A stretch of 43,582 nucleotides of DNA from a virus. Below are positions 7,797-42,947 of the stretch, piece by piece (positions within the stretch are counted from its first letter, which is position 1; each line of letters opens with the position of its first letter). The stretch spans positions 1 through 43,582 of the IMG/VR virus record IMGVR_UViG_3300008266_000510; one strand, written 5' to 3'. The notes beneath the pieces were generated by a model, which saw only the letters and a program-made list of their open reading frames with translations, made no database searches and had not been told where the DNA came from. The position numbers and the translations under genes are program-made.

Positions 7797-8412
7797 AGTT
7801 GAACTACTAGGATATTATGGAAATGATAAAATTCATGCTTGTTCTGCATGGACTAGTACATCTAGAGACTTATCGGAAGATAAGATTGATCGAATACCTA
7901 AACTATTAAAAATGTTAGCGGATGAAGGTCATCATACTCCTTTTGAAAAAAGTTATTTACATTTTTTAGTAACAACAGATATAGCATCGCACATTCATAT
8001 AATTAAACACAGAATAGGAGTAAGTGTTAATGGCGAATCTGCAAGATATAAAGAGATTAAGGAAGATCAATATTTAATTCCTGAAGATTGGCCTTTAATT
8101 TGGCAAGAACAACTTAAATCTTATACTCAACTAGGTTTGGATAAATACCATAATTGTATAGAAAGTTTAGTTAATGATTATGGTTTCGATAGAAAAAGAG
8201 CCAAAGAAAGTGCTAGATTTTTTAGACCATACAATACCCAGATTACTTCTGATGTAAGTTTTAATTGGAGAAGTTTTTATCATTTTCAATCATTACGCAA
8301 TAAACCTAATGCTCAGTTAGAAATTAGAGAAATTGCACAAACTATGTTAGATTTAGTAAAAAATATTGATAATAATCCATTTAAATATACAATAGAGGCA
8401 TTTGGATTATAA
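7786..8412 (+). CDS. thyX: flavin-dependent thymidylate synthase ThyX
   Basis: Methylates dUMP to dTMP using methylene-tetrahydrofolate, NADPH and FAD; supplies thymidine for phage DNA. The signature region is KHRIGVSVNGESARY (residues 74-88), the counterpart of the RHR...S..RY motif, with Lys for the first Arg and one residue more than the commonest spacing. TPFEKSYLHF (51-60) and SFYHFQSLRN...AQLEIREIA near the C-terminus also match the family. 208 aa is typical. The start overlaps the stop of the upstream ThyX remnant, and the 3' end overlaps a convergent HNH gene. Confidence 0.9.
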   Translation: MLNKVELLGYYGNDKIHACSAWTSTSRDLSEDKIDRIPKLLKMLADEGHHTPFEKSYLHFLVTTDIASHIHIIKHRIGVSVNGESARYKEIKEDQYLIPEDWPLIWQEQLKSYTQLGLDKYHNCIESLVNDYGFDRKRAKESARFFRPYNTQITSDVSFNWRSFYHFQSLRNKPNAQLEIREIAQTMLDLVKNIDNNPFKYTIEAFGL

Positions 8413-9045
8413 GATTTTATCTGATTTACTAATATTATCTTTAGCCCATAATGGCTGTAAATTTGTATAGTGAAAACACTTTCTCTGTTGTTCAGGATCG
8501 CTCATGTCAAAACTGGAACATGGAATTATATGGTCTATATGCCAACCATATTTTCCATAATTTTCCCAAGTCATGCCTTCTTGAAACTTATTTGCTAAAT
8601 ATGTTTTTAAATATTCAATATCACAGCCAATTAGTTCTTTAGTTTTTTCTTGTTTTATATTATTCTTAACTGCCAATCTTAATCTGCTTCTTAAACTACT
8701 TAATATTCTATATGATAAATTATTTTGATATTTATTTCTTTCATATTCTCTCTGTAATTTTCTATATTCTAAACTGGCTTTATGTCTAAGAATTTCTTTT
8801 TTATTTTTTTCATAGTAATTTTTATTATATTTTGAAGTATAGTTTTTATTATTTTTTCTATACTCATTCATATATTTTGATCTACTTTGTAAGATTGAGG
8901 TCTTGTTTTTTTGAAAATGCTGTTTATGATAAAGAGAAACGCAAGACTTACATTTTGCGTCCAATCCAAATTTTCCGCCCTTTTTCTTGTAAAAAGAAGT
9001 TAACTTTTTATTTTTGAGGCAAACGGTACATTTTTTAGTTTTCAT
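8407..9045 (-). CDS. HNH homing-type endonuclease
   Basis: The only convincing leftward gene here. Start placed at the ATG at 9045, with AAGGA upstream; a longer in-frame start is unlikely. N-terminus is a zinc-finger-like region (CTVCLKNKK, CKSC), the middle is a Lys/Asn-rich helix (residues 45-130), and the C-terminus carries the HNH fold WHIDHIIPCSSFD ... HYTNLQPLWAKDN. About 212 aa. Its end overlaps thyX by six bases. Orientation and position next to a rebuilt thyX suggest a free-standing homing endonuclease. Confidence 0.85.
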   Translation of the reverse strand: MKTKKCTVCLKNKKLTSFYKKKGGKFGLDAKCKSCVSLYHKQHFQKNKTSILQSRSKYMNEYRKNNKNYTSKYNKNYYEKNKKEILRHKASLEYRKLQREYERNKYQNNLSYRILSSLRSRLRLAVKNNIKQEKTKELIGCDIEYLKTYLANKFQEGMTWENYGKYGWHIDHIIPCSSFDMSDPEQQRKCFHYTNLQPLWAKDNISKSDKIL

Positions 9046-9094
9046 ATATTTCCTTTTAATATCAAATACACCAAAATTCAAGAATTTACTCAAA

Positions 9095-9289
9095 ATGAAA
9101 ACATTTAATATCACGGCACAGGTATTTAAAAACAGCGATTTGTCAAAACAAAATCTATTAATTAATCAGGTATTTGATGGTTCTACTTCTGAAAATGCTC
9201 TTTCTAATTTTAAATTACATTTTCCTTCTATAGAATATTCTTTAGTAAAAATTCTATCTGTTGAAGAAATTCCTCAAGAAGCGGCTTGA
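9095..9289 (+). CDS. hypothetical protein, 64 aa
   Basis: ATG 9095 opens MKTFNITAQVFKNSDLSKQN, a short alternating strand/helix pattern ending EEIPQEAA. No clear ribosome site, possibly because the HNH insertion separated it from its upstream leader. Function unknown. Its stop overlaps the -35 of the uvsE promoter. Confidence 0.5.
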   Translation: MKTFNITAQVFKNSDLSKQNLLINQVFDGSTSENALSNFKLHFPSIEYSLVKILSVEEIPQEAA

Positions 9290-11978: not shown

Positions 11979-12006
11979 TTGACAATGCCGATACCTGTGC
12001 TATACT
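11979..12006 (+). promoter_or_regulatory. sigma70-type promoter
   Basis: TTGACA, 16-bp spacer with CCGATA three bases after the -35, TATACT. Leads to an AAGGAG site and ATG 12040. Confidence 0.8.
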
Positions 12007-12039: not shown

Positions 12040-12444
12040 ATGCCTCGCGGCCAGAAAATTTGTCCAAGTTGTTCTGCTATCAATGGTCCCCGTGCATACA
12101 CTTGTAAGAGTTGTGGTTCAGATTTTGCTTTCAAGCCCAAAAGCAAGGAAGTTAAAAACACCAAGATCATTAAGGATGTTAATTGGAAAGAATTGGTTAA
12201 GGGTGATCGTATAAAAGTTCGCGGTGGCCCCTATTATGTTCATAAGGGTGAATTTATCCCTATGGGTTATCGTGGACGCTTTGTGGTAGACTGTATTGAT
12301 GACAAGGGCATTAGGGCTTATGGTATTGATAAGCACGGTGGATTTGCTCATATTTATATGGGTGGAGACTTTCAAAACAAGGAAACCGGCGTATGGAAGA
12401 TTGCTCACGAAATTGTCAAACTGAAAAACAGAGAAGTGGTATAA
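12040..12444 (+). CDS. zinc-ribbon phage protein, 134 aa
   Basis: N-terminal zinc ribbon (KICPSCSAIN ... YTCKSCGSDF, residues 6-27) followed by a beta-rich domain KGDRIKVRGGPYYV ... GEFIPMGYRGRFVV ending KIAHEIVKL. This architecture is found in several T4-like phages with no known function; nucleic acid or RNA polymerase binding is a reasonable guess. It has its own promoter and a good ribosome site. The stop overlaps the next start. Confidence 0.65.
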   Translation: MPRGQKICPSCSAINGPRAYTCKSCGSDFAFKPKSKEVKNTKIIKDVNWKELVKGDRIKVRGGPYYVHKGEFIPMGYRGRFVVDCIDDKGIRAYGIDKHGGFAHIYMGGDFQNKETGVWKIAHEIVKLKNREVV

Positions 12445-12719: not shown

Positions 12720-13103
12720 ATGGACGAAAAACTCTATTCTATTGTTGATCTTGAAGGATACGCTAAACAGGTTAGAGAAGCGGCTGCTCAAACCTTATCA
12801 GAAAATAACAACGATAATCTTGATGATTATATCACCATCACACAACTAGTCCAGATGGTGCGTAAAAACTGTTGTGGTTTTGATGATGATAACAGACCTC
12901 TCTTAAATGAAGATATTAACGAGCAAATTTATGACTGTACTATAACTTGGATACATAATGTCGCATTAGCAAAATTGGCTGCTAAAGACTTACTAGAATG
13001 TGCTTGGGATGATAAGGCTAATGAAATGGTATTTTGGCCTAAAGAGACTGAAAATGATAAATCCGTCAAACGAAGAAATAAGAAAAAGAATAAAGAGTCT
13101 TGA
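12720..13103 (+). CDS. hypothetical protein, 127 aa, helical
   Basis: Mixed helices with ITITQLVQMVRKNCCGFD and, near the end, LAAKDLLECAWDDKANEMVFW. The tail pattern (helix, charged turn, E-x-x-FWVP/W) resembles that of the protein at 25109, suggesting the same winged-helix-like fold. Lys-rich C-terminus. Function unknown. Confidence 0.55.
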   Translation: MDEKLYSIVDLEGYAKQVREAAAQTLSENNNDNLDDYITITQLVQMVRKNCCGFDDDNRPLLNEDINEQIYDCTITWIHNVALAKLAAKDLLECAWDDKANEMVFWPKETENDKSVKRRNKKKNKES

Positions 13104-13233
13104 AGAAGAAATACATAATTACGAAACATATCTACTGTCAGAAAGTTGCAGTAGGTGTGCTGATGCTTATGCTAAGATAGAGCAATACAAGACAGAAATT
13201 GGTGAACTGATACAACTATATCATAATGATTAA
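13054..13233 (+). CDS. small coiled-coil protein, 59 aa
   Basis: Start at 13054 inside the previous gene's end. INPSNEEIRKRIKSLEEEIH gives a heptad pattern; CSRC is a single CxxC. Its stop lies three bases before the tmRNA 5' end and a candidate tmRNA promoter overlaps its 3' part. Confidence 0.5.
   Translation: MINPSNEEIRKRIKSLEEEIHNYETYLLSESCSRCADAYAKIEQYKTEIGELIQLYHND
13199..13227 (+). promoter_or_regulatory. candidate tmRNA promoter
   Basis: TTGGTG, 17-bp spacer, CATAAT, placing the start of transcription close to the first G of the tmRNA. Both hexamers deviate from consensus, so the call rests mainly on spacing and position. Confidence 0.35.
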
Positions 13234-13236
13234 TAA

Positions 13237-13594
13237 GGGGGTATAACGGTATCGATTGGATAATAGCAATTATGTTAGCAAGTAGTGGTTGATCGACCGG
13301 CCACTTTAAAAAGTCGATTAAACGCTTTAACTGGCGAAACTCAGTTAGCCCTTGCTGCCTAATAAATAAGTAGCAACAATCTTAGAAAGCGATGAAGGTA
13401 GCGTTCAAAAGATTGATGTAAAATCCTTCGGCTGCTAGAATAGCCAACGGGTTCTAGCCTGAGATTAGTTGGTACGGAAAGATGAATGTTGTTTGTTCTT
13501 TAGTCTTTCTTAAAATTTATGAATAAACTAAACTTGTAGAATATATAATGAAAATTATCGCAACACATGGGTTCGACTCCCATTACCTCCACTA
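13237..13594 (+). ncRNA. ssrA: tmRNA (SsrA), one-piece, phage-encoded
   Basis: Transfer-messenger RNA that rescues stalled ribosomes and tags the nascent protein for degradation. The 5' strand GGGGGTA (13237-13243) pairs with TACCTCC (13584-13590, one G-U); the T-arm is ATGGG/CCCAT around TTCGACT (13567-13583); A at 13591 is the discriminator and CTA follows in place of CCA, so the CCA must be added. The tag frame reads ALTGETQLALAA, then TAA TAA (13360-13365). Just before it a pseudoknot is visible: AGTGG (13284-13288) with CCACT (13301-13305), interleaved with a 9-bp helix of 13289-13297 with 13313-13321. The resume codon is most likely GCT at 13324. Length about 355 nt is normal. Confidence 0.93.
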
Positions 13595-13938
13595 TGCCTA
13601 GAAAAATTTGTACTTATTGTGGTAAAAGAAAAAACCGTAAAAGTTTTCCTAAACATAGTTTGTACAAAGATAAACTAGATACAAGATGTAAAAAATGCGT
13701 TAAAGAACATTCAAAGGTAAGAAATAAACTTCATAAAAAAGCACCAGATAAACCAGAAGTTTGTGAGTGTTGTAAAAAGATCCCCATTAAATGGGTATTA
13801 GATCATAACCATGATGATGATACTTTTCGTGGATGGCTTTGTGATAGATGCAATACCGGCATAGGAAAATTAGGAGATAATTTAGGTGGTATTGTCAATG
13901 CGATGAATTATTTTCTCTCAAGACCCAATCGCAAATAG
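13594..13938 (+). CDS. EndoVII-type HNH endonuclease next to tmRNA
   Basis: MPRKICTYCGKRKNRKSFPK is a zinc-finger N-terminus of the kind also seen in the HNH protein at 8407-9045; the C-terminal part CECCKKIPIKWVLDHNHDDD ... GWLCDRCNTGIGKLGDN is the recombination endonuclease VII family (T4 gp49-like His-Cys/HNH fold; DHNH, CDRCN). About 114 aa. It begins at an ATG whose A is the last base of the tmRNA 3' end, so no ribosome site is possible in the normal position; the upstream in-frame ATG at 13567 lies in the T-arm. Most likely a mobile endonuclease that targets the ssrA gene. Confidence 0.8.
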   Translation: MPRKICTYCGKRKNRKSFPKHSLYKDKLDTRCKKCVKEHSKVRNKLHKKAPDKPEVCECCKKIPIKWVLDHNHDDDTFRGWLCDRCNTGIGKLGDNLGGIVNAMNYFLSRPNRK

Positions 13939-13999: not shown

Positions 14000-15316
14000 A
14001 TGACTCACGATTTTGATTATGTTTGGAAGATGGTAACTGCTCTTAGAAATACAAGCAGCACAAAAGAAAAAGAAGATATTATCAAGATTAATTGTGGAAT
14101 TTTCAATAATTCATCTGCAAATTTTGCTAAGAAAATTCTACTCTATACTTATCATCCACTTTGGCAATATCATGTAACCAGTGATAATTTAAAGAAGAAA
14201 AATTATTTGGTCGCCAGAAAGAATGAATACAAAAATTTCTTTGATCTGCTTGATGCTCTAAAGAGTCGTAAAATTACTGGGCATGATGCTATATCTGCTG
14301 TGAATAGTTTTGTCGAACATTACGCTGACTATGAGGAACTTATTCATTGTGTTTTGGATAAAGACTTGAAAACCCGTGCTGGCGATAAGATCATTAATAA
14401 GGCTATTCCAGATCATATTCCAGAATTTAGTGTAGCCTTGGCCGATAAATATAGTCCAGATATTGTAGATTGGAAAGATGAATGGTATGTTAGTCGTAAG
14501 ATCGATGGTGCTAGATGTATCGCTATTGTTGATAGTAATGGGGAGTCTACTTTTTATTCCCGCACGGGAAAAGAGTTTGATACTCTTGGTGTTGTTGCTG
14601 GTGGCATTAAGAGTTTGGGTGTTACTAATGTAGTATTTGATGGTGAACTTTGTCTTGTGGATGATGAGGGTAATGAAGATTTTCAGGGGATCATGAAACA
14701 ACTCAAAAAGAAGGATCATACCATCCCTAATCCTTCATATAAGATTTTTGATATGATTTCTCACGACGAATTTTATAGTAAGAAGGGCGAGAAGAACAAG
14801 CCTTATTCTATTCGCTATAATAATCTACGAGAAGTTATGAAAAATAATACTTGTACTTGTCTTAGTGTGCTTGGTCAAGAACTTATTAAAGATGATGATC
14901 ATTTTCAGGAGTGGATTAAAAAAAGTAAAGATTACAAGTATGAAGGACTTATGCTACGAGCAGACGAACCATATAAAGGGAAGCGTAGTAAAGATCTGCT
15001 GAAAGTTAAGAAGTTTTTTGACGATGAGTATGAAGTTATTGATGTGGAAATGGGTCCATTTCGTTATGTATTGAATGGTAAAGAGCATGAGGAAACCATG
15101 CTTTCTTGCGTAATGATTAAGCATAAAGATCATGTTGTTAGAGTTGGTAGTGGATTTGCTATTGACCAAAGACAAGAGTTTTATCAAGACCCCAAAAAGA
15201 TTCTTGGTAAAATTATTACGGTTCAATATTTTGAGGAAACTAAAAACCAAGAAGGCGGAATTAGTTTGCGTTTCCCAACATTTAAGTTTTTGCATGGGTC
15301 TGCTAGAACCGTTTAA
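14000..15316 (+). CDS. ATP-dependent DNA ligase
   Basis: Seals nicks in phage DNA. Nucleotidyltransferase motif I is SRKIDGARC with the AMP-accepting Lys167; motif III is in VFDGELCLVD (about 213-222), motif IV in YEGLMLR (about 314), motif V in DLLKVKKFFDDEYEV, after which an OB domain follows (ISLRFPTF at the end). N-terminal helical domain of about 150 residues as in T4 ligase. 438 aa is within the usual range of phage enzymes. Own promoter and AGGAG site; codon use is richer in G/C-ending codons than in neighbouring small genes. Confidence 0.92.
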   Translation: MTHDFDYVWKMVTALRNTSSTKEKEDIIKINCGIFNNSSANFAKKILLYTYHPLWQYHVTSDNLKKKNYLVARKNEYKNFFDLLDALKSRKITGHDAISAVNSFVEHYADYEELIHCVLDKDLKTRAGDKIINKAIPDHIPEFSVALADKYSPDIVDWKDEWYVSRKIDGARCIAIVDSNGESTFYSRTGKEFDTLGVVAGGIKSLGVTNVVFDGELCLVDDEGNEDFQGIMKQLKKKDHTIPNPSYKIFDMISHDEFYSKKGEKNKPYSIRYNNLREVMKNNTCTCLSVLGQELIKDDDHFQEWIKKSKDYKYEGLMLRADEPYKGKRSKDLLKVKKFFDDEYEVIDVEMGPFRYVLNGKEHEETMLSCVMIKHKDHVVRVGSGFAIDQRQEFYQDPKKILGKIITVQYFEETKNQEGGISLRFPTFKFLHGSARTV

Positions 15317-16636: not shown

Positions 16637-17983
16637 GTGAAAATATCCAGAAGATCACTTATTCAAAGTGGCCTATTAGGCTACTCATCATTATCTGCAA
16701 CTGAGGTTATAGCAGAATCTAAAACTGATAATTCAGTCATACTGGTTTGGTTGCCGGGCGGGCTTTCTCAATTAGAAAGTTATGATCCTAAATCACAAGC
16801 CAAAAGCGATGTAAAGGGATTATTTAATAGTATTCCTACTAATGTGGTTGGAACTCATATTAGTGAACTATTTCCTTTACAGGCACAAATAGCAGATAAA
16901 TTTACTCTTATACGATCTATGACCCACAGATTCACCGATCATGGTGGAGGGTCCAAAAGAGTAATGACAGGAAAAGAACCCAAAGTTCCTACAGGTACTA
17001 TTAACGATACTCCATCTATAGCATCAGTAGTTTCAAAACATAACCATAATAATGGTTGTATTATTCCATCTAATATTTTATTAGCGGATGGTGGCACTAA
17101 TTCTGTTGATGAATTTGCACTAGGGTCTGCATTTTTGGGATCGTCATATGATGCCTTTATTGTTGATGGCGACCCTTCTGCTAAAAATTTTAAAGTAAAC
17201 AATATTACTATGTCAGATAGTCTTAAAGGCAGAATTGATGATAGATTACAATTGCTATCTCAAATAGATAAAATAGATAGACAATTAGATTATTCGCAAT
17301 CTATGAGTGCTATGGATAATTTTCATAAAAAGGCTTATGATTTATTAACTTCTCATGAAGTTAAAGGAATTTTTGATGTAGTCTCTGAGCCGTTATCTGT
17401 TAGAGAGAGTTATGGATTAAATGCTTGGGGTCAAAGATGTCTTATGGCAAGAAAACTAGCAGAAGCAGGCAGTAATTTCGTAACTGTAACATTAAGAAAT
17501 CCGCCAGGATCACCACCAGATCATTCGTATTATAATTGGGATTGTCATGCTGTTAATTGCGATATATTTATAGATATGAAATATAAAGCAAATTTTTATG
17601 ATCAGGCTGTTAGTGGATTAATTAATGATATCTATAATAGAGGATTAGATAAAAATATTTTAGTTGTAGTAATGGGAGAATTTGGACATACTCCTAAATT
17701 AGAATATAAAGAAGCAAGAGGTAAAATAAGAAATGGTAGAGATCATTGGTCTAAAGCATTTTCTATATTAGTATCTGGTGGTGGATTAAAAATGGGTCAG
17801 GTTATTGGCAAAACAGATGACAATGCTGCATTTGTAATTGATCGTCCTGTGACTCCAGAGGACTTGTGGGCCACGATTTATAGGCACTTGGGTATTGATG
17901 CGTCTAAAGTTATTTATGACCTCAGTGGTCGGCCAATTCCTATTTTAGCAGATGGCAGACCCATAAAAGAACTGGTGATTTAA
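16637..17983 (+). CDS. DUF1501 family protein, Tat-exported
   Basis: Alkaline-phosphatase-like fold protein of family DUF1501, common in Planctomycetota and related bacteria and very unusual in phage. Start is GTG 16637 with ACGGAG upstream (the ATG two bases earlier is followed at once by a stop). N-terminus ISRRSLIQSGLLGYSSLSA is a twin-arginine signal. Family motifs: VWLPGGLSQLESYDPK (about 35-50), LIRSMTHRFTDHGGG (about 91-105), WDCH (about 298) and VVVMGEFGHTPK (about 340). 448 aa is full length. Substrate unknown; could modify host surface or be retained cellular cargo. Confidence 0.88.
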   Translation: MKISRRSLIQSGLLGYSSLSATEVIAESKTDNSVILVWLPGGLSQLESYDPKSQAKSDVKGLFNSIPTNVVGTHISELFPLQAQIADKFTLIRSMTHRFTDHGGGSKRVMTGKEPKVPTGTINDTPSIASVVSKHNHNNGCIIPSNILLADGGTNSVDEFALGSAFLGSSYDAFIVDGDPSAKNFKVNNITMSDSLKGRIDDRLQLLSQIDKIDRQLDYSQSMSAMDNFHKKAYDLLTSHEVKGIFDVVSEPLSVRESYGLNAWGQRCLMARKLAEAGSNFVTVTLRNPPGSPPDHSYYNWDCHAVNCDIFIDMKYKANFYDQAVSGLINDIYNRGLDKNILVVVMGEFGHTPKLEYKEARGKIRNGRDHWSKAFSILVSGGGLKMGQVIGKTDDNAAFVIDRPVTPEDLWATIYRHLGIDASKVIYDLSGRPIPILADGRPIKELVI

Positions 17984-41874: not shown

Positions 41875-42292
41875 TCCTACTATAGTTTGGGAAAAATGGG
41901 TTGATCCATACGGAAATAATCCAGAAGATATAGAGTGGCCAGGATATGATTCTGATCATATTATTGATGATCATGATGAAGAATCTGAACACAAGCCTAA
42001 AGTTAGCAAAATTAATGCTATAGTCACTTCGATGGGTATTATTCCATTTAATGAACATACAGATTGTAGTAAAATTTTTAATTTTTGGGTAGGACACACC
42101 AATTTTAGTATTACTCAATATATTGCTCATATTTTGCAGTCTATAGAGGGGGTTGAGACTTTGGATATATTTACTAGATATAGATTTAGAATAGCATTTG
42201 GTAAGGCGTTTGATGATAGACAAGTGATGGATACTATAAATAGTAAAATCAAAACATTATTTATCACAAATGCCAATGAATCCGAATTTTGA
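41864..42292 (+). CDS. conserved phage protein, 142 aa
   Basis: Acidic N-terminus (WVDPYGNNPEDIEWPGYDSD), then IVTSMGIIPFNEHTDCSKIF, FWVGHTNFSITQYIAHILQS and LDIFTRYRFRIAFGKAFDDR, a segment pattern (T-R-Y-R-x-R-I-x-F-GKAF) that I know from T4-like cyanophage genomes as a conserved protein without function. Overlaps neighbours. Confidence 0.62.
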   Translation: MQNNPTIVWEKWVDPYGNNPEDIEWPGYDSDHIIDDHDEESEHKPKVSKINAIVTSMGIIPFNEHTDCSKIFNFWVGHTNFSITQYIAHILQSIEGVETLDIFTRYRFRIAFGKAFDDRQVMDTINSKIKTLFITNANESEF

Positions 42293-42947
42293 ACAAAAAT
42301 TATCCAATATCCATCATTATGGTATTGATCCAGAAAATAGAGAAATATTTCTCCATTCACACATGATGGATTGCGAGGATGAAAATGGCGTAGATTATAG
42401 ATGTGCTGTGACTTTTGAAAAAAATTTACGCTACCTTAATACCATATCATTTGATCCTATTATTATACATATGCATATGCCGGGCGGCGATTGGTCGGAT
42501 TGTTTGGGTATATATGACGCTATGCAACACTCACAATCTCCCATTGCCTGCGTAGCATATGCTAAAGCAGAATCTGCTAGTGGTGTTATTTTCCAAGCGG
42601 CCGATCTGAGAATATTAATGCCTAATGCATATATGCTTATTCATTATGGGTCTTTATCACTAGATGGTGAACACAAAGCGGCCCTTAGTAATCTAAAATG
42701 GAACGAACAAGAAGCATCAAAAATGATAGAAATTTTTACAGAGAAATGCTGCTTGTCTCCAATGGCTAAAGAAAAAATGTGGAAAAAATCAATGATAAAA
42801 AAACATATAACCTCCCAACTGTCTAATAAATCAGATTGGATACTTACAGCTAACGAATCGGTGTATTATGGTTTTGCTGATGGTATATTTGGCACATCAC
42901 CATATCAATCCATAGAACACATCAAGAAAAAATTAGCGAAAAAATAA
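42270..42947 (+). CDS. ClpP-like serine protease
   Basis: Crotonase-fold protease of ClpP type. MPGGDW (about residues 70-75) is the strand-loop near the oxyanion hole, AKAESASGVIF (98-108) carries Ser102 as likely nucleophile, MLIHYGS (122-128) the His125, and ESVYYGFADGIFG near residue 205 is the family's final motif (E-A-V-x-Y-G-L-x-D-x-I). 225 aa. Near head genes it could be a prohead protease; it could also act with a Clp ATPase on tmRNA-tagged proteins. Start may be at 42270 or 42276. Confidence 0.8.
   Translation: MPMNPNFEQKLSNIHHYGIDPENREIFLHSHMMDCEDENGVDYRCAVTFEKNLRYLNTISFDPIIIHMHMPGGDWSDCLGIYDAMQHSQSPIACVAYAKAESASGVIFQAADLRILMPNAYMLIHYGSLSLDGEHKAALSNLKWNEQEASKMIEIFTEKCCLSPMAKEKMWKKSMIKKHITSQLSNKSDWILTANESVYYGFADGIFGTSPYQSIEHIKKKLAKK

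Follow-up and report, generated by a model that had tools for sequence, protein, structure and literature searches.

tmRNA is a bacterial RNA that frees stuck ribosomes, and a gene for it in a phage genome raises the questions of whether it is genuine and complete, and of what use it might be to the phage. The locus considered here lies in a linear viral record, 43,582 bases long (IMG/VR IMGVR_UViG_3300008266_000510), which was analysed at its full length and is called the window below; its assignment to a phage rests on its IMG/VR origin and on matches that point to RIIA, DNA ligase and Endonuclease VII (Endo VII) genes. The original prediction, made from the letters alone, placed a complete tmRNA gene (ssrA) at 13237-13594 and named ARAGORN and a covariance-model search as its checks. 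Both were run. ARAGORN found one RNA gene in the window, a one-piece tmRNA at 13237-13592 on the plus strand, and no tRNA genes. Rfam RF00023 matched the window a single time, at 13237-13594 and over the entire model (1-374 of 374), with 103.7 bits (E = 1.4e-39) against a gathering score of 47, and no RNA family besides tmRNA exceeded threshold anywhere in the window. The match is significant, so the tmRNA call stands with its coordinates, and ARAGORN and the written-out pairing also recover the 7-bp acceptor stem and the T-arm that had been described. The two-helix pseudoknot seen ahead of the resume codon is likewise present, ending 14 nt before that codon. Two other gene forms were rejected: the permuted two-piece form, as the gene order is one-piece in both ARAGORN and Rfam, and the intron form, as the T-loop reads TTCGACT without a group I intron. 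The window thus holds a genuine, complete one-piece tmRNA, apparently a working copy, with the following parts (percentages are cells paired in the alignment of 69 relatives introduced below).

13237..13594, plus strand: tmRNA (ssrA) gene, by ARAGORN, Rfam RF00023 and sequence
13237..13243, plus strand: acceptor stem, 5' strand GGGGGTA, pairs with 13584-13590
13239 with 13588, plus strand: G3-U70 wobble, G-U in 69 of 69 aligned sequences
13259..13282, plus strand: long helix P2, 5' side, pairs with 13533-13559 (helices 2-4: 82.1, 90.1 and 100%)
13284..13318, plus strand: pseudoknot PK1 (helices 5 and 6: 98.6% and 96.6%)
13333..13365, plus strand: tag frame GETQLALAA with TAA TAA, by ARAGORN and conservation in relatives
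13352..13376, plus strand: hairpin P5 over the tag end and stops (helix 7: 96.9%)
13377..13429, plus strand: pseudoknot PK2 (helices 8 and 9)
13434..13472, plus strand: pseudoknot PK3 (helices 10 and 11)
13477..13528, plus strand: pseudoknot PK4 (helices 12 and 13)
13533..13559, plus strand: long helix P2, 3' side (helices 2-4)
13567..13583, plus strand: T-arm ATGGG-TTCGACT-CCCAT (helix 14: 98.8%)
13584..13590, plus strand: acceptor stem, 3' strand, by written pairing and covariation
13591, plus strand: discriminator A73, no encoded CCA (C-T-A comes next)

The resume codon is GGC (13333-13335) in both the ARAGORN call and the Rfam alignment, and the tag read from it is GETQLALAA (13333-13359), followed by TAA TAA. 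ARAGORN therefore agrees with the ALAA end and two stops first noticed by eye; the tag originally given, ALTGETQLALAA, was three residues too long. The codons GCU UUA ACU before GGC are non-coding, because the stretch ahead of GGC is shifted by one base in eight of 83 distinct relatives, which would break the frame. Across these 83 phage tmRNAs residues 4-9 are QLALAA without exception, with synonymous variation at five of the six codons, the exception being leucine 5, which is TTA throughout; hairpin P5 takes in the end of the tag, so that the codon constraint is partly structural. Residue 2 is variable (E, T, V, N, K or A) and residue 3 is T or N, such that the family also includes GTNQLALAA, GVNQLALAA and further tags. 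The resume codon is GGC in 82 of the 83, residue 1 being Gly in these and Ser in one, a sister phage (L002:9238-9595) with 100% ligase identity to the window, whose resume codon is AGC and whose tmRNA was uncalled by ARAGORN and matched by Rfam at 97 bits.

Covariation among relatives carries much of the case for the structure. Full-length tmRNAs were present in 157 of 239 phage loci; 83 were distinct, and 69 were left after reduction at 97% identity and aligned, the window representing its identical twin. With the four-pseudoknot structure written from the window, 94.7% of 5975 cells were paired, compared with 37-51% when partners were slid by one to three columns, a gap that is large even though drawing the structure from one of the aligned sequences favours it over the slid versions. 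Changes on both sides occurred in 62 of the 87 drawn pairs, including three of five and five of six pairs in the two helices of PK1 and all five in the T-arm, and none of 500 shuffles attained any of five measures. All four pseudoknots (helices 5-6 and 8-13) are backed by compensatory change. Such change in the acceptor stem and PK1, which the original prediction had set as its own test, is abundant and leaves the tmRNA unrefuted. Of the 87 drawn pairs, three fail in half of the aligned set or more. In helix 2 it is the innermost pair (45 of 69), in helix 8 of PK2 a single pair (35 of 69) and in helix 13 of PK4 the outermost (59 of 69). Recurrence in relatives, with compensatory changes throughout, places the tmRNA beyond chance. 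G3-U70 is the alanine identity pair, and it is retained: acceptor pair 3 stays G-U in every aligned sequence while pairs 4-7 swap among G-C, C-G, U-A and A-U. All 83 distinct tmRNAs have A directly after the acceptor, and none encodes CCA.

How widely the gene is shared was assessed from its neighbourhood. A search of IMG/VR with the neighbouring DNA ligase (14000-15316) gave 435 related stretches, of which the best 80 were fetched, and a search with the tag pattern matched 51 stretches. Among 129 loci, ARAGORN called 81 tmRNAs (the window's included) and a profile built from 49 distinct tmRNAs matched 110; the 19 misses are all ligase loci, 10 with less than 1 kb of DNA before the ligase and nine with more, the longest being L020, which has 4.5 kb upstream of the ligase and is without a match. 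Because the tmRNA precedes the ligase by 0.6-5.7 kb, short loci may simply end too soon to include the tmRNA. By length of DNA before the ligase, it was found in 33 of 33 loci with at least 5 kb, 42 of 43 with at least 3 kb, 47 of 51 with at least 2 kb and 58 of 67 with at least 1 kb. Within the 80 ligase loci, all 46 that include the upstream marker gene carry the tmRNA, with identical strand and order. All 16 related records examined have a match, 15 above the cut-off and the sixteenth an interrupted gene described below. The tmRNA is a core gene of a large-phage family, and the claim that this phage brings its own working tmRNA is, by this conservation and covariation, well supported.

A wider set comprised 387 phage loci, many of which overlap as stretches of one contig; the profile matched in 326 of them, at full length in 278. 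Of the 48 incomplete matches, three come from the interrupted contig and 15 sit at the end of a locus; the remainder are mostly divergent tmRNAs that the profile covers in part. When ten divergent loci were submitted to Rfam, nine matched the whole model and the tenth (L201) was cut by its contig start. A second, more divergent phage group has the tags GEVSTLALAA, GEVTLALAA or GEVNLALAA (15 loci read). This group comprises several of L196-L232, on contigs of up to 238 kb; its tmRNAs lie beside a related Endo VII gene and are largely missed by ARAGORN. Viral contigs L599, L597 and L602 have tmRNAs far from the window's in sequence, yet their tags, GNNQLALAA or GNTQLALAA, are nearly identical to it. 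Used directly as a query against 50,697 phage records, the window tmRNA found no match; two weak partial matches of its first 52 nt, in two records of one Acinetobacter phage, lie under a protein gene and were discarded.

The gene is tightly packed between coding genes, which in the window are arranged as follows.

11979..12006, plus strand: sigma-70-type promoter-like site TTGACA-16-TATACT, preceding the gene run that holds the tmRNA
13000..13233, plus strand: small open reading frame, its stop codon ending 3 nt short of the tmRNA 5' end
13594..13938, plus strand: Endo VII-family gene (Pfam PF02945, 1.2e-10; phrog_2633, 6.8e-20), nuclease activity predicted

The Endo VII ATG begins 2 nt past the tmRNA discriminator base and has no Shine-Dalgarno-like sequence (25 of 57 checked start codons in the window have one). 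Among the 83 distinct tmRNAs, Endo VII lies within 400 nt downstream in 46, within 10 nt in 32 of these and at exactly 2 nt in 13; conversely, 177 of 185 loci with Endo VII also carry a tmRNA. A frame open for at least 40 codons (start codon optional) ends within 10 nt of the tmRNA in 35 of the 83, and 29 are without such a frame within 300 nt. Many relatives (for example L011:7264-7339 and 14139-14212) have a tRNA-Ile(TAT) before the tmRNA and a tRNA-Leu(TAA) after the ligase.

Promoter-like sites were defined as at least 10 of 12 matches within 150 nt before a gene. One site stands 61 nt before the gene at 12040, and 61 of 62 distinct relatives have one ahead of the homologous gene; another stands 54 nt before the ligase, as in 103 of 104 distinct relatives (shuffled rate 3-4% for both). 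Corresponding values are 21 of 78 relatives for the tmRNA itself (shuffled 7%), five of 94 for Endo VII (shuffled 5%), and 27 of 72, 22 of 75 and five of 40 for the genes at 12393, 12720 and 13000 (shuffled 2-6%), which points to inner starts in some relatives. In the window, both the tmRNA and Endo VII lack such a site in the preceding 150 nt, and weaker 9-of-12 sites lie at 12326, at 12931 and, inside the tmRNA, at 13413. The number of sites in this stretch is near chance (11 versus 8.1, s.d. 2.5), so it is their conservation that counts. We infer a single transcript in the window, running from about 11979 through Endo VII, from which the tmRNA would be cut.

Elsewhere in the window, a DUF1501 protein is encoded at 16637-17980 (Pfam, 3.3e-79); the DUF1501 genes of relatives belong to differing subfamilies and occupy different places near the ligase. 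An actin-like protein at 30700-31701 matches Pfam Volactin (3.9e-63), a haloarchaeal family. On the minus strand at 8407-9114, a 235-codon frame looks by eye like an HNH endonuclease and has no Pfam match at E 0.001. At 42270-42944 lies a ClpP-fold serine protease, for which PHROGs puts head maturation protease first; its Ser, His and Asp align with those of a ClpP chain, which we take to be the catalytic residues of ClpP.

The identity of the host bears on any role. A search of genome contigs with the ligase alignment found no relative, and host inference relied instead on DUF1501, for which eleven phage proteins, headed by the one from phage L059, were aligned. The best 80 matches listed in genome contigs were 67-81% identical to the L059 protein; 78 of the 80 titles name planctomycete taxa, mostly Planctomycetaceae and some Pirellulales, several come from lakes, and two say only 'bacterium'. 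The window's own DUF1501 protein is 37% identical to that of L059, so its host is approached through relatives, whose genes suggest that the family probably infects Planctomycetota. A tmRNA exceeded the cut-off in 24 of 35 searched genomes among the 80, and SmpB was found in 11 of 13 searched genomes of this putative host lineage. ARAGORN read 22 tags in 30 host-lineage loci: AEAQFSLAA in 13, AEARFSLAA in four, AEAQFALAA in two, and three others.

These bacterial RNAs resemble the phage RNA in part. Tags in Planctomycetota MAGs are likewise of nine residues and end in LAA, Q stands at position 4 in 15 of 22, the acceptor GGGGGCG occurs in both sets, and CCA is encoded in neither (none of the 22 has it). 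In contrast, their resume codon specifies Ala where the phages have Gly, and in a tree that sets 69 phage tmRNAs beside 56 from bacteria the two stay apart, the phage RNAs grouping as a single clade at the end of a long branch (0.65, support 0.859) outside the host lineage; by this tree, the phage gene may or may not derive from the host. The window tmRNA is 45-51% identical to the 22 host-lineage tmRNAs, and the best planctomycete DNA match to it among 294 sampled genomes covers 38 query bases at 89%. With the phage profile (nhmmer, pieces summed), the top eight host-lineage tmRNAs scored 86-94 bits and other Planctomycetota loci at most 63, in an uneven sample of loci whose one 69-bit score belongs to a phage contig (L523). 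The tag pattern matched nine of 199 Planctomycetota genomes and the reversed control pattern matched more, so only loci read by ARAGORN were used. Six of the nine were so read, and four end in QLALAA; such tags in genomes filed under Planctomycetota are ANTQLALAA, AKPQLALAA and GNNQLALAA, some on short contigs that are possibly misbinned (4.4 kb for GNNQLALAA).

The original prediction described phage tmRNAs as rarely reported, which the literature does not bear out: one survey counts them in 402 of 18,146 phages (2.3%; PMC9004378), and they are reported from huge phages, said to include SmpB too (PMC7162821), from Bradyrhizobium elkanii phages (PMC12656738) and from mycobacteriophage IkeLoa (PMC9670876). 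Their roles are offered as proposals in the available excerpts of PMC9004378, PMC7162821 and PMC12656738. The tmRNA of OM43 phage Melnitz is permuted and two-piece, related to alphaproteobacterial ones, carries a predicted glutamine riboswitch and lies just 3' of an early promoter (PMC9004378), whereas that of the window is one-piece, has a Planctomycetota-like tag and adjoins Endo VII. Unlike the huge phages, none of 16 records related to the window phage (54-223 kb) has SmpB, although these records are linear and often fragments, so that the gene could sit in a missing part. With one-piece bacterial tmRNAs (RF00023) the window RNA shares the acceptor with G3-U70, T-arm, P2, four pseudoknots, resume codon and LAA-ended tag, and it differs in being phage-borne and in having no promoter-like site close before it. 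Our search, over papers available in part, found none on a planctomycete-phage tmRNA, which is not proof of absence. Phage tmRNAs are thus already known, and what is less ordinary here is the tight operon position.

We consider it probable that this is a one-piece, core-gene tmRNA of large tailed phages of Planctomycetota that works in the normal way and sustains ribosome rescue during infection. The RNA would probably be read as part of the phage gene run, from the sigma-70-type promoter about 1.2 kb upstream, and excised from that transcript by host tRNA-processing enzymes. Host AlaRS would charge it with alanine through G3-U70, and host SmpB would bring it to stalled ribosomes, where a template swap at GGC 13333 would add (A)GETQLALAA and free the ribosome, the tagged product passing to host proteases. 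Rescue would in this way be maintained as cut or incomplete messages pile up, and keeping ribosomes running, one of the two roles first proposed, seems the likeliest.

The other of those roles, tag switching, would have the phage RNA serve mainly to give rescued products a different tag, directing them to another protease or adaptor or letting them escape. Phage tags (GETQLALAA, GTNQLALAA, GVNQLALAA and others) do differ from those of the host lineage, the window's own tag departing from AEAQFSLAA at four of nine positions, and 13 of 16 related records carry a gene for a ClpP-fold protease; yet the phage tag and the commonest host tag share their length, Q4 and the LAA end, residues 2 and 3 vary among phages, QLALAA tags exist in genomes filed under Planctomycetota, and the best PHROGs matches of the ClpP-fold protein are head maturation proteases. 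Tag switching has weak support, and as the main role we think it unlikely. A pairing of phage-owned ClpP with the tmRNA to tag and degrade was set aside except within that explanation, given what PHROGs favours. The low identity to the 22 probable host tmRNAs would also suit a divergent, resistant spare that answers host nucleases inactivating tRNAs or tmRNA, and a related proposal exists for phage tRNAs (PMC10264068); we hold this to be distinctly improbable. The phage RNA might instead shut rescue down by competing for SmpB or ribosomes with the tmRNA of the host. There is a precedent in phage DS6A, whose tag-less tmRNA is reported to act in E. coli as an inhibitor of the endogenous one (PMC11915505), but a resume codon kept in 82 and a tag frame kept in all 83 of the distinct tmRNAs are expected of an active tagger rather than a decoy, and we give the idea very little credence. 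Finally, ssrA is a common integration site (PMC9004378, PMC11915505), from which a relic of integration or imprecise excision might derive; against a complete gene that covaries over a diverse family and whose place in the gene order is unchanged in all 46 loci with the upstream marker, such a passenger is scarcely credible.

To the probable reading, a working tmRNA that sustains rescue, we add a tentative one concerning Endo VII, which we regard as possible though on balance doubtful: that tmRNA maturation is coupled to Endo VII expression, and that Endo VII-type genes of this family also use the tmRNA gene as a landing site. With no promoter-like site nearby and a gap of 2 nt, 3' cleavage by tRNA-processing enzymes would leave a nearly leaderless Endo VII message (5'-CU-AUG). 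The landing-site part draws on a 100.5-kb contig, L048, in which the profile matches the tmRNA in two pieces (7942-8048 and 8637-8922) separated by a 628-nt insert (8013-8640) within PK1; the interruption is known from this one contig, and misassembly is possible. The insert has a 19-nt inverted repeat at its ends and encodes a 179-codon Endo VII-family gene (phrog_2914 and phrog_2633, 7.7e-27), for which, among the best 80 loci, only the L048 contig exceeds 53% identity. Nine junctions were tried for joining the flanks, and each time ARAGORN read a complete tmRNA, its tag GNTQLALAA; the profile scored 338-350 bits over the joined piece, whereas the two separate pieces gave 283 plus 54. Folding of the region 7988-8690 surpasses that of shuffled sequence (z = -7.4, 20 shuffles), and within the landing-site reading the insert may be extruded from PK1 as a hairpin. 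A group I intron was rejected, as no intron family matched at either threshold. No other tmRNA interrupted in this way was found among the 48 incomplete of 387 loci. The arrangement is none of the three main gene forms in the available excerpts of PMC11915505, where introns among 97,179 tmRNAs are reported from the T-loop alone, with the caveat that others elsewhere could have escaped notice.

If the coupling is true, making a rescue RNA and making a DNA-junction nuclease would be one event. The tight packing between coding genes makes it directly testable whether a phage tmRNA is excised from a polycistronic message and whether such a cut governs translation of the gene that follows, and with an alignment of this size and diversity one can ask where in the tag selection acts. 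More generally, in a large phage lineage, probably one that infects Planctomycetota, tmRNA can be fixed across the whole clade rather than carried as an occasional passenger.
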